This document shows positions 52,580-56,887 of a DNA stretch of 64,000 nucleotides, piece after piece. A program made the translations under genes and the position numbers. Within the stretch, counting starts at the first letter, position 1, and each line of letters opens with the position of its first letter. A model generated the notes under the pieces. That model made no database searches. It was given only the letters and a program-made list of their open reading frames with translations, and was not told the origin of the DNA. Origin of the DNA: Salipiger sp. H15 (GTDB lineage: Bacteria; Pseudomonadota; Alphaproteobacteria; Rhodobacterales; Rhodobacteraceae); assembly GCF_040409955.1 (NCBI RefSeq), contig NZ_CP123384.1, positions 1,274,501-1,338,500 on the forward strand, read 5' to 3'.

Positions 52580-54793
52580 ATGAGTGATTCAGGGCGGGGC
52601 AAGGGCCGTTTGGTGGCCGATCGCCGCTATCCCAATGGTGGCCAGAAGGGCGGCCAGACCGCCACCGGCAGGAGCCAGGGCGCAAGACCCTCCCGAAGTG
52701 GCAGCGCAGGTGGCGCAGGAGCAGGAAGCGGACGCCGGCGCACGCCGCCGCGGCGCCCGGCGAAGAGGCGGAACTTTCTCGTGGCTTTCGTGTTGGGCAT
52801 CGTGTCTTTCGTGCTGAGCATCCTCTGGCGCATCACCTGGCGGGTCACCGCCGTGGTTGCGGTTCTCCTCGCCCTCGGCGTGGGCTATTTCTATACAAAG
52901 CTTCCCCCGGTGACCGAGTTGCTGGACGGGCGGGCGCGCGGGTCGGTCACGCTGATCGACCGCAACGGCGCGATCTTTGCCTGGCGCGGCGACCAGTTCG
53001 GCGGCGCGGTGACCGCGACGAGCGTGTCCAAGCACCTCAAGAACGCGGTGATCGCCACCGAGGACAAACGCTTCTACCACCATTTCGGCGTCTCGCCGCG
53101 CGGCGTCGCCAGCGCCATCCGCATCAACCTCGCCGAGGGGCGCGGCCCGCTCTCCGGCCACGGCGGCTCGACCATCACCCAGCAGACGGCGAAACTGCTC
53201 TGCATCGGCGTGGAATACGATCCGAGCGCCTGGAAATCCGAGGCCGACTACGTCTCGGACTGCCGCCAGTCCTCGCTGGCGCGCAAGGGCAAGGAAGCGC
53301 TCTACGCCATGGCGATGGAGCTGAAGTACACCAAGGACGAGATCCTCTCGATCTACCTCAACCGCGCCTACATGGGCGGCGGGGCCTACGGGGCGGAAGC
53401 CGCGGCCGAGCGCTATTTCGGCAAGAACGCCGCGACGCTCAACCCGCAGGAATCGGCGATCATCGCCGGGCTGCTGACCGCGCCCTCGACGCTTGCCCCC
53501 ACCGCCGACCTCGAGCGCTCGCAGAAGCGCGCCGCGACCGTGCTGCGGCTGATGCGCGACCAGGGCTTCCTCAGCGCCGCCGAGGAAGAGCAGGCGCAGG
53601 CGCATCCCGCGACCCTGTCGGCCGAAGCGCAGGCCAAGACCGGCGGCTATTTCGCCGACTGGGTGATGTCGACCGGGCCCGAGTATTTCACCCGCGACAC
53701 CATGGAAGACGTGGTGATCCGCACCACGCTCGATCCGAGGCTGCAGAAGGCCGCCGAGGACGCGATGAACGAGGTCTACACCAGCAAGGTCAAGGAAGGC
53801 TCCAAGGCCGAGGCGGCGATCGTCGTCATGTCCGCCGACGGCGCGGTGCGCGCCATGGTCGGCGGCCGCAAGACCGGCATCTCGGGCGGGTTCAACCGCG
53901 CCACGCAGGCCAAGCGGCAGACCGGTTCGGCCTTCAAGCCGTTCATCTACGCCACCGCGCTCGAACTGGGGCATTCGCCCTATGACACGGTGGTGGACGA
54001 GCCCTTCTGCATGAACATCCCCGGCTCGGGGCAATGGTGCCCGCAGAACTACTCGAAGTCCTACAAGGGCCGGGTGACGATGACCGATGCGCTGGCGCAT
54101 TCGCTGAACATCCCGGCGGTGAAGATCTCCGAGTTGGTCGGGCGCGACCTCGTCAGCAAGGTCGCCTCGGGCTTCGGCATCAAGTCCGAGCTCAACACCT
54201 CGCCGGCCATGGCGCTCGGCACCTCCGAGGCCTCGCTGCTGGAAATGACCGGCGCCTATGCCGGCATCCTCAACGGCGGCTCGGCGGTGACTCCCTACGG
54301 GCTCGTCGACCTGCGCCTCAAGGGCGACAACGAGGTGCTCATGGGCACCGGCGGCGGCATCCGCGAGCGGGTGATCCAGCCCGAGGCCGCGGGCCAGCTG
54401 ATCTGGATGATGGAGCACGTGGTCACCGAGGGCACCGGCGGACGGGCGCAGCTGCCCGGCCGCGAGGTGGCCGGCAAGACCGGCACATCGAACGACGCGC
54501 GCGACGCCTGGTTCATCGGCTTCACCGCCGATTACGTGGTCGGCGTCTGGATGGGCAACGACGACAACTCGCCGCTCACCGGGGTCACCGGCGGCGGCCT
54601 GCCGGCGGAGATCTGGCGCGAGACCATGCTGCGGGTCACCGACGGAACCGAGGTCAAGCCGCTGCCCGACGTCGAGCCCGAGGCACCGCAACGCGTGGCC
54701 CAGCCGCAGCCGCAGGCGCAGCGCGAGCCGCAGCGGGTGCGCCGCGACAACATCATCCAGCAGGTCATCCGCGATCTTCTGGGGGGGCGCTGA
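52580..54793 (+). CDS. mrcA: Class A penicillin-binding protein 1A
   Basis: 737-aa bifunctional peptidoglycan synthase. A basic Gly/Arg/Pro-rich cytoplasmic tail (1-65) leads to a membrane anchor (about 66-105). The GT51 glycosyltransferase has catalytic Glu161 in ATEDKRFYHHFG and GGSTITQQTAKLL. The transpeptidase has S450-x-x-K453 (TGSAFKPF), SLN, and K633TGTS. A Gln/Arg-rich tail ends the protein. ATG 52580 behind AGAGAG is chosen; an upstream in-frame ATG lacks a ribosome-binding site. Divergent from glnK. Confidence 0.94.
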   Translation: MSDSGRGKGRLVADRRYPNGGQKGGQTATGRSQGARPSRSGSAGGAGAGSGRRRTPPRRPAKRRNFLVAFVLGIVSFVLSILWRITWRVTAVVAVLLALGVGYFYTKLPPVTELLDGRARGSVTLIDRNGAIFAWRGDQFGGAVTATSVSKHLKNAVIATEDKRFYHHFGVSPRGVASAIRINLAEGRGPLSGHGGSTITQQTAKLLCIGVEYDPSAWKSEADYVSDCRQSSLARKGKEALYAMAMELKYTKDEILSIYLNRAYMGGGAYGAEAAAERYFGKNAATLNPQESAIIAGLLTAPSTLAPTADLERSQKRAATVLRLMRDQGFLSAAEEEQAQAHPATLSAEAQAKTGGYFADWVMSTGPEYFTRDTMEDVVIRTTLDPRLQKAAEDAMNEVYTSKVKEGSKAEAAIVVMSADGAVRAMVGGRKTGISGGFNRATQAKRQTGSAFKPFIYATALELGHSPYDTVVDEPFCMNIPGSGQWCPQNYSKSYKGRVTMTDALAHSLNIPAVKISELVGRDLVSKVASGFGIKSELNTSPAMALGTSEASLLEMTGAYAGILNGGSAVTPYGLVDLRLKGDNEVLMGTGGGIRERVIQPEAAGQLIWMMEHVVTEGTGGRAQLPGREVAGKTGTSNDARDAWFIGFTADYVVGVWMGNDDNSPLTGVTGGGLPAEIWRETMLRVTDGTEVKPLPDVEPEAPQRVAQPQPQAQREPQRVRRDNIIQQVIRDLLGGR

Positions 54794-54798
54794 GGGCA

Positions 54799-54844
54799 GC
54801 AACTTCCTTCGAAGGAAGTTGCAAAAGCCTTCGAAGGCTTTTGC
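54799..54844. repeat. Two adjoining 24-bp perfect palindromes
   Basis: Palindrome 1 (54799-54822) has half-site GCAACTTCCTTC and its complement; palindrome 2 (54821-54844) has half-site GCAAAAGCCTTC. They share GC at 54821-54822 and the same CCTTCGAAGG core. Placed five bases after the mrcA stop and before pyrF. No T-run follows. Confidence 0.75.
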
Positions 54845-54910
54845 CCCGGGCTTGACCTGAGCCGCACAGGCGGACATGAGAGGCGAAATCCCGCAAAAGG
54901 AGCCGCCCTC

Positions 54911-55642
54911 ATGTCCGCAGCCGCGTCCGACGACCGCCTGATCGTAGCCCTCGACGTGCCCAACGCCCTTGAGGGGCTGAGAATCGCCGAAGAGATCGGC
55001 GACGCCGTCTCCTTCTACAAGATCGGCCTTGGCATGCTCACCGGCGGCGGGCTGGCGCTGGCCAACGAGCTCAAGCAGGAGCACGGCAAGCGCATCTTCC
55101 TCGACATGAAGTTCTTCGACATCGGCCAGACGGTCGAGAACGCGGTGCGGGGCATCGCGCAGTTCGACCTCGACTTCCTCACGGTGCACGGCGATCCGCA
55201 CGTGGTGCGCGCCGCCAAGGAAGGTGCGTCGGGCAAGGACCTGAAGATCCTCGCGGTGACCATCCTCACCTCGCTCGACCGGGCCGATCTGGATGCCAGC
55301 CTGATCCTGCCGGGCGACATCGAGGACCTGGTGGTCGAGCGCGCCGCCCGCGCCTTCGAGGCGGGGGCCGACGGCATCATCGCCTCGCCGAACGAGGCGG
55401 CGCGCATCCGCGCGCTGCCCGAGGCCGAGGGCCGGCTCATCGTGACGCCGGGCGTGCGCCCGGCAGGCAGCGCTGACGACGACCAGAAGCGTATCGCCAC
55501 GCCCGCGAGCGCCATCGCCGCCGGGGCCGACCACATCGTCGTCGGCCGCCCGATCTGGCGCGCCCCCTCGCCGCGCGCCGCGGCGCTGGCGATCAATGCC
55601 GAGCTCGCCTCGCCGCAGGCGCAGCGCCCGAACAAGTCTTGA
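54911..55642 (+). CDS. pyrF: Orotidine 5'-phosphate decarboxylase
   Basis: 243-aa TIM-barrel enzyme of UMP synthesis. LIVALDVPN starts the barrel, and the catalytic D-x-K-x-x-D is in FLDMKFFDIGQTVENAV. VTPGVRP and AGADHIVVGRPIW form the phosphate site. AAAGGAG precedes ATG 54911. The trp leader peptide starts 31 bases after its stop, so trpS may share its transcript. Confidence 0.95.
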   Translation: MSAAASDDRLIVALDVPNALEGLRIAEEIGDAVSFYKIGLGMLTGGGLALANELKQEHGKRIFLDMKFFDIGQTVENAVRGIAQFDLDFLTVHGDPHVVRAAKEGASGKDLKILAVTILTSLDRADLDASLILPGDIEDLVVERAARAFEAGADGIIASPNEAARIRALPEAEGRLIVTPGVRPAGSADDDQKRIATPASAIAAGADHIVVGRPIWRAPSPRAAALAINAELASPQAQRPNKS

Positions 55643-55673
55643 TCGAAAGGCCGCGCGGGGCTAACCAGACGTC

Positions 55674-55718
55674 ATGACACGTCCGATGCCCCTCGCGAAT
55701 CTCTGGTGGCCCGCCTGA
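55674..55718 (+). CDS. Leader peptide with tandem Trp codons (trpS attenuator)
   Basis: A 14-codon frame, MTRPMPLANLWWPA, with consecutive TGG codons at 55704-55709 and TGA at 55716-55718. It lies in front of a Trp-tRNA synthetase gene and overlaps strand 1 of a four-strand attenuator. The Shine-Dalgarno is weak (GGGG about 13 bases upstream). Its significance rests on the Trp-Trp placement and the RNA architecture, not on conservation that I could test. Confidence 0.75.
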   Translation: MTRPMPLANLWWPA

Positions 55719-55777
55719 CATAGGCGGCCGGACACATCATGTTTTCCAATCAGGCCGCCGCATCGGGCGGCCTTTTT
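55708..55777 (+). promoter_or_regulatory. Tryptophan transcription attenuator upstream of trpS
   Basis: Strand 1 GGCCCGCC (55708-55715) can pair with strand 2 GGCGGCC (55723-55729, one bulge). Strand 2 is perfectly complementary to strand 3 GGCCGCC (55753-55759). Strand 3 (with A55752) pairs with strand 4 GGCGGCCT (55766-55773) followed by T-run to 55777: an intrinsic terminator. Ribosome stalling on the Trp codons would cover strand 1, allow 2:3, and prevent termination. Confidence 0.82.
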
Positions 55778-55840
55778 GATGAACGAGATCCCATCAAGTC
55801 CCCCATGCGGCGACCTCCCTGTCCAGACACGGAGACCCCC

Positions 55841-56887
55841 ATGGACCAGACCACCCTGACCCGACCCGAGACCGCCGACGCCTCCACGGCGCGGCCGGTC
55901 ATCCTCACCGGCGACCGCACCACCGGCCCGCTGCACATCGGCCATTACGCCGGCTCGCTGAAGAACCGGCTGGCGCTGCAGGACACGCACCAGCAGTTCC
56001 TGCTGCTCGCCGACACGCAGGCGCTGACCGACAATGCCCATGACATCGGCAAGGTGCGGCGCAACGTGCTCGAGGTGGCCTGCGACTATCTCGCTGTGGG
56101 CATCGACCCCGGCAAGACCACGATCTGCCTGCAGTCGCACCTGCCGGCGCTGGCCGAGCTGTCGATGCTCTACCTCAACTTCGTCACCGTCGCCCGGCTC
56201 GAGCGCAACCCGACGATCAAGGACGAGATCCGCGCGCGCGGCTTCGGGCGCGACATCCCCGCCGGGTTCCTCTGCTATCCCGCCGCGCAGGCCGCCGACA
56301 TCACCGCCTTCAAGGCCACGGTCGTGCCGGTGGGCGAGGACCAGGCGCCGCTCATCGAGCAGTGCAACGAGATCGTCCGGCGGGTGAACGCCGCGGCGGG
56401 GCGCGAGGTGCTGCCCGAGGCGCAGGCGCTGATCCCCGAGGCGGGCCGCCTGCCGGGCATCGACGGGCGCGCCAAGATGAGCAAGTCGGGCGGCAACGCG
56501 ATCACGCTTTCCGCCTCGGAGGACGAGATCAGTCGCGCGGTGCGGGCGATGTTCACCGACCCGGATCACCTGCGGGTCGAGGATCCGGGCAGGGTCGAGG
56601 GCAACGTCGTCTTCACCTACCTCGACGCCTTCGACGCGGAGAGGGCCGAGGTCGCCGAGCTGAAGGAGCACTATCGGCGCGGCGGGCTTGGCGACGCGGT
56701 GCTGAAGCGGCGGCTCGAGGACATCCTGCAGGCGCTGCTCGCGCCGATCCGTGCGCGGCGGGCCGAGGTTGCCTCGGATCCCGCGCATCTGCACCGGATC
56801 ATCCTCGAGGGCACGCAGGCGGCGCGCGAGGTCACCGAGGCGACCAAGCGCGAGGTGATGGACGCGCTGGGGCTGTTCCGGCTCTGA
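55841..56887 (+). CDS. trpS: Tryptophanyl-tRNA synthetase
   Basis: 348-aa class I synthetase. HIGH at 32-35 ([12 protein letters not shown]) and KMSKS at 212-216 ([12 protein letters not shown]); GDRTTGPLH at the start is typical of the TrpRS subgroup that exists as a second or alternative enzyme in several bacteria. Length is normal. ATG 55841 follows CGGAG. Preceded by a Trp leader-peptide attenuator, so expression should rise when charged tRNA-Trp falls. Confidence 0.93.

Follow-up and report, generated by a model that had tools for sequence, protein, structure and literature searches.

A conserved probable trp-type attenuator on auxiliary tryptophanyl-tRNA synthetase genes of Salipiger sp. 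H15 and related Proteobacteria

In the window, i.e. the whole stretch of 64,000 nucleotides of Salipiger sp. H15 that was analysed here, our results reveal a conserved attenuator on an auxiliary tryptophanyl-tRNA synthetase (TrpRS) gene, and we consider it very likely that this enzyme of the TrpRS II type is controlled by ribosome-mediated transcription attenuation. The backup TrpRS would probably be made only when charged tryptophan tRNA is short. In the relatives, an RNA switch is tied to gene redundancy, as the attenuator is present on the spare TrpRS and absent on the sole TrpRS, and this presence/absence rule provides a natural experiment on the conditions under which attenuators are retained.

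The leader, the four pairing strands and a T-run lie, as read directly, between the pyrF stop codon (55640-55642) and the trpS start (55841), on the forward strand like all the other elements around them. As the preliminary description had stated, the gap holds a short frame with two adjacent TGG codons, MTRPMPLANLWWPA, which extends over 55674-55718 from the ATG at 55674 through TGGTGG (55704-55709) to the TGA stop (55716-55718), and short frames with such a Trp pair (WW frames) precede related genes as well. Strand 1 (CCGCCT, 55711-55716) is followed by strand 2 (AGGCGGCC, 55722-55729), the 5' arm of the antiterminator with the leader stop codon 3 nt upstream, then by strand 3 (AGGCCGCC, 55752-55759), which from pairing counts and fold energies is common to the antiterminator, the terminator and a 3:5 helix, and finally by strand 4 (GGCGGCCT, 55766-55773), which together with the T-run (55773-55777) makes up the 3' arm and tail of a predicted intrinsic terminator (55766-55777). 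The three alternative hairpins are similar in strength, with window fold energies of -14.2 kcal/mol for 1:2 (z -1.7), -16.9 kcal/mol for 2:3 (z -3.4) and -18.3 kcal/mol for 3:4 (z -4.5), and a terminator scan of 54700-56000 returned 2 matches against 0.5 expected, both of them the 3:4 hairpin. The pairings given earlier hold for 2:3 and 3:4, which are perfect complements, while 1:2 in its first form (GGCCCGCC with GGCGGCC) is imperfect and is better written as CCGCCT (55711-55716) with AGGCGG (55722-55727). Downstream of the terminator and upstream of the trpS ribosome site lies strand 5 (TGCGGCG, 55806-55812), which is able to pair with strand 3 and was recognised from pairing and covariation in relatives as an alternative partner for 55756-55762; the likely ribosome site itself is CGGAGA (55830-55835), whose GGAG is complementary to a CTCC inside 55814-55818.

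This four-strand logic is shared with the E. coli trp attenuator (RF00513, Trp_leader). The RF00513 covariance model has no match in the window or the genome, and among 14 control genomes it matches in E. coli only. Riboswitch and T-box models of Rfam 15 gave no gathering-score match at the leader site; in the whole window they match a single place, a distant glycine riboswitch aptamer (RF00504, 9897-9982, reverse strand, 57.1 bits). Three features of a trp-type attenuator are present, namely a tandem-Trp leader, an intrinsic terminator ahead of the structural gene and, with the near set of relatives described below, an exclusive antiterminator on strand 3, with termination predicted from sequence only and the covariation of 2:3 itself weak.

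In the proposed mechanism, RNA polymerase would initiate at the leader ATG or directly beside it, followed by a ribosome that translates the leaderless frame. With ample Trp-tRNA, the ribosome would reach the stop codon and cover strand 2, so that 3:4 pairs and transcription ends near 55777. With scarce Trp-tRNA, for example when the main TrpRS is inhibited or limiting or under Trp starvation, the ribosome would stall at the two Trp codons, where already at the first of them it would cover strand 1, and strand 2 would then take strand 3 ahead of the synthesis of strand 4, allowing readthrough into trpS. In an equilibrium fold of 55717-55778, from which strand 1 is omitted, 3:4 still wins once strand 4 is present, and hence such a switch must be kinetic, with 2:3 forming first. 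Antitermination in the classical attenuation model likewise relies on the kinetic order of helix formation.

The leader mRNA is probably leaderless, with the transcript starting at the ATG. A -35-like hexamer TTGATC (55639-55644) overlaps the pyrF stop codon, and by eye a -10-like hexamer TAACCA (55662-55667) is located 17 nt after it and 6 nt before the leader ATG. In a count that includes the truncated or broken locus L156 and that favoured the ATG with TTG among alternative ATGs, 85 of 93 distinct upstream regions have a TTG at positions -39 to -34 relative to the leader ATG, compared with 60 of 744 control windows; moreover, a TA-containing element is often seen by eye about 12 nt 5' of the leader ATG in relatives. 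A consensus scan yielded no strict sigma-70 site, and by eye the leader frame has no recognisable ribosome site. It is the conserved TTG spacing, the TA-containing element and the absent ribosome site that together suggest a transcript beginning at the leader ATG. The predicted promoter-like site of conserved spacing is thus placed upstream of the leader and not downstream of 55777, in agreement with what had been supposed at the outset.

The gene behind the leader (55841-56887) is assigned as a second, divergent TrpRS of the TrpRS II type, distinct from the housekeeping trpS. Its protein exceeds the NCBIfam trpS cut-off, and the closest solved structures by sequence are 1yi8 (4e-117) and 2a4m (4e-115), the next one reaching only 7e-66; 2a4m is named Tryptophanyl-tRNA synthetase II, and both are presumably Deinococcus radiodurans enzymes. 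The gene had been correctly taken for a TrpRS gene, with the correction that it is the auxiliary one: the housekeeping copy lies elsewhere in the genome (G000:C1:760954-761952) and is only 30% identical to it. The two proteins also differ in their motifs, TGDRTTG and DTQALT in the window TrpRS versus SGIQPSG and DMHAIT in the housekeeping one, i.e. Arg for Gln and Gln for His. Among 164 fetched TrpRS loci, the first position is Arg in 160 and the second is Gln in 155, where the exceptions include the housekeeping copy (Gln, His) and the distant sole copies L158-L160 (His), and in the remaining ones the search pattern was simply unmatched. These positions we take to be Gln9 and His43 of the Geobacillus enzyme, which affect indolmycin binding. 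The benefit of the auxiliary TrpRS would be that of a backup enzyme with a changed active-site sequence. TrpRS II is described as radiation-induced and as interacting with nitric oxide synthase (PMC9437257); this partner was not found in the genome of the window. As to the start of the gene, no stop codon interrupts its frame upstream as far as an ATG at 55739, which automatic annotation could choose, thereby hiding the attenuator. A start at 55739 is disfavoured, given that in Alloyangia pacifica the frame is closed 33 nt 5' of the matched start and that 55841 has a ribosome site ahead of it.

Within the genus, 13 of 20 genomes have a match to the gene at E 1e-60 or better; in the family, class and phylum samples the numbers are 12 of 295, 35 of 385 and 43 of 398, the own genome included in each, and the lower-ranking matches in the class and phylum samples are mostly distant. 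All the 22 full-length copies of the genus and family sets carry the WW leader, as had been anticipated for relatives, while a truncated copy (L024) is without it. Among the best 80 of at least 563 loci, leaders are found in Rhodobacterales, Rhizobiales, Kiloniella, Reyranella and Burkholderiaceae, and the phylum sample adds genomes that cluster, in the tree described below, with the plasmid copies of Vibrio and Klebsiella. The Trp pair and the pairing strands, and with them the trp-type architecture first noticed in the window, are conserved in relatives and present also where the gene is not downstream of pyrF. On plasmids, 101 records have a TrpRS match, including 24 of Staphylococcus and 22 of Klebsiella (plasmid searches; L161 and L167), and a WW frame lies upstream in 11 of the 12 plasmid copies fetched from them. 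Six of these are E. coli pB379_2, K. pneumoniae pKLP00155_3 and copies of Variovorax, Vibrio, Agrobacterium and Roseibium. The other five come from Burkholderia, from Methylorubrum and from three actinobacteria at about 41% identity, and in this second group some of the frames start with GTG or TTG. An Acetobacter plasmid copy has a single-Trp frame. The three actinobacterial plasmid genes (L168, L169, L170) have WW or WWW short frames upstream. On the Methylorubrum extorquens AM1 megaplasmid, the TrpRS-like frame (L171, 47% identity) is unannotated in the feature table and has the short frame MFETAHSLGYWWAPAQ upstream.

The presence of the leader follows the number of TrpRS genes, which were counted per genome with TIGR00233 at E 1e-40, a threshold that a very divergent second TrpRS could escape. 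In the named set, i.e. the best 80 of at least 563 loci less L028 (without upstream DNA) and L036, giving 78, the WW leader precedes 53 of 55 auxiliary copies and none of 23 sole copies; the leader of L089, 262 nt upstream, is in this count and outside a 330-nt scan, which gives 52 of 55. An overlapping survey, with 79 genomes in the copy count and 76 loci tabulated (G577, G519 and G608 being left out), gives 43 of 45 auxiliary versus 1 of 31 sole copies, where three of the sole loci (L124, L131, L158) have less than 300 nt of upstream DNA. Left out of these counts are the broken or truncated L024, L155 and L156, the fragment G687 and most matches of family f188 (about 41% identical). Nearly all auxiliary relatives thus retain the TGG pair, whose absence would have spoken against the preliminary description. 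Auxiliary genes without the leader are L054 and L142, single-Trp-codon frames are found on the auxiliary L088 and L109 and on the plasmid copy L166, and L141, counted as a sole copy, yet keeps its WW leader. Fisher tests of the two tables give p of 7.5e-17 and 1.1e-17, but as the same genomes recur in both and the rows are not independent by descent, these values overstate the support and a tree is the fairer test. On a quickly built, midpoint-rooted tree of 152 rows, with three single-Trp leaders scored as leader, the leader label changes 6 times where shuffles give 45, and none of 500 shuffles gives so few; at least 4 of the 6 changes are forced by starred branches. Nested among leader-bearing groups are 14 rows of Acinetobacter and 11 rows of the Cupriavidus group, all of them sole copies, and Cupriavidus basilensis (L050), the sister of the latter group, has both a second TrpRS and the leader. 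We read the roughly 6 changes as mainly losses, for example in Acinetobacter and Cupriavidus. Of the sole copies in the survey, 27 of 31 are distant (about 40-57% identical), and therefore their absent leader is weaker evidence than that in the two nested groups.

Pairing was counted in 70 of 90 distinct leaders, divided into a near set (A2, 34 rows) and a far set (A3, 36 rows), and 1:2 is uncounted in the near set because its register varies among subgroups. In the near set, 98.5% of the cells of 3:4 are paired with 2 two-sided pair changes (3 of 500 shuffles as high), 91.7% of those of 3:5 with 2 (17 of 500), and 96.6% of those of 2:3 with 1 (41 of 500). In the far set, 1:2 is paired in 99.5% of cells with 3 two-sided pair changes (0 of 500 shuffles), and 3:5 in 89.9% with 7 such pairs (1 of 500), its two-sided cells numbering 48 versus 14.4 in shuffles (0 of 500 as high), while the two-sided changes of 2:3 (81.9% paired) and of the local hairpin (78.9% paired) show no excess above shuffles there (274 and 420 of 500). 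The covariation expected among the strands is hence borne out for 3:4 by a few compensatory changes, but for 2:3 it is weak in the near set and at shuffle level in the far set. Of the far-set helices, the long-range 3:5 thus has the strongest support, and it can also form in the window (55756-55762 with 55806-55812). More tentatively, it is possible, if not yet probable, that a leaderless Trp-codon attenuator and an inhibitor-tolerant TrpRS II have spread together as a mobile cassette across Alpha-, Beta- and Gammaproteobacteria and plasmids, that the attenuator is lost when the enzyme becomes the sole TrpRS, and that a helix chain of 1:2, 2:3, 3:4, 3:5 and 5:ribosome site governs both transcription and translation.

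In most far-set sequences no clear T-run follows the local hairpin, and the mean number of T per 8 nt is 3.9 after their 3:5 helix versus 6.4 in the near-set T-run; the far-set 3:5 helix may act either as a weak terminator or on the ribosome site. Under a two-level control, the leader would gate the translation of the synthetase too, with strand 5 and the adjacent CTCC switching between strand 3 and the ribosome site, and relatives that lack a clear T-run would depend mainly on this switch. Besides the 3:5 covariation in the far set, this reading is favoured by a complementarity between the ribosome-site region and the preceding 22 nt that is better within than between sequences (permutations as good: 0 of 5000 in the near set and 6 of 5000 in the far set, figures inflated by relatedness). 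However, the modelled accessibility of the ribosome site in 90 sequences shows no difference between the stalled and finished states (means 0.31 and 0.32), being higher when stalled in 7 and lower in 11, so that a control of this site by equilibrium folding is not favoured, and we think the two-level reading on the whole unlikely.

A further action in trans, on top of attenuation, by the leader peptide or the terminated small RNA is quite improbable; such action is reported for peTrpL and rnTrpL of Sinorhizobium meliloti, where a leaderless small RNA of similar make is reported (PMC7298713). Against it, the peptide varies between lineages at positions other than the Trp codons and the residues that directly follow, as expected for a role in cis. 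In control 450-nt segments from 62 loci (L025-L086), an ATG-started WW frame of less than 32 codons occurs in 17 of 1956, and together with a terminator-like site in 1 of 1956, whereas in the 450 nt upstream of TrpRS genes the WW frame occurs in 105 and the combination in 52 of 167 fetched loci, which take in the housekeeping copy, sole copies, broken copies and duplicates. This control rate, together with the recurrence of leader and hairpin before related genes in other genomic contexts, plasmids included, leads us to reject as barely credible that the hairpin, though it starts 109 nt from the pyrF stop codon, is merely the pyrF terminator and the WW frame an accident.

Attenuation of an auxiliary TrpRS, as preferred here, is of a known kind. 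Vecchione and Sello are said to have reported in 2010 an attenuator on trpRS1 of S. coelicolor. For trpS2 of Streptomyces avermitilis an attenuator was predicted (PMC1262725), which agrees with the precedent in Streptomyces that had been invoked for the window, and auxiliary Streptomyces TrpRS of such type are indolmycin-resistant according to PMC9437257 and PMC6804068. The Streptomyces systems are alike in having a Trp-codon leader, alternative hairpins and an auxiliary TrpRS, and a Streptomyces plasmid TrpRS is also preceded by a WW frame; they are unlike in belonging to another phylum, that plasmid TrpRS being 41% identical to the one in the window, and the available portions of PMC1262725, PMC9437257 and PMC6804068 do not mention a leaderless start, strand 5 or an auxiliary-only rule. 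In S. meliloti, the trpL transcript starts at the leader ATG, and trpL/trpE(G) resembles our case in its 14-residue leader, its ATG-start transcript and attenuation via stalling at Trp codons, but controls a biosynthetic gene instead of a synthetase (PMC7298713). No description of a proteobacterial trpS attenuator was found in the open literature searched, and none appears in the available parts of PMC4833913, PMC12135181, PMC7916415, PMC3487940 and PMC10727445; the earlier supposition that the alphaproteobacterial lineage has no prior account thus stands within this literature, where neither the proteobacterial spread nor the auxiliary-only rule was found described. The Salmonella trpS2, 28% identical, was suggested to let trpS tolerate insertions, with no trpS2 attenuator mentioned in the accessible text of PMC3487940.

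Under the attenuation model, an inducible tolerance to natural TrpRS inhibitors is predicted, and this would offer a possible reason for the two dissimilar trpS genes of some bacteria. Producers of indolmycin are a marine gammaproteobacterium and Streptomyces griseus, according to PMC6804068. Elsewhere in the window, two successive palindromes, each centred on TTCGAA, are seen by eye at 54799-54842, directly 3' of the gene preceding pyrF.
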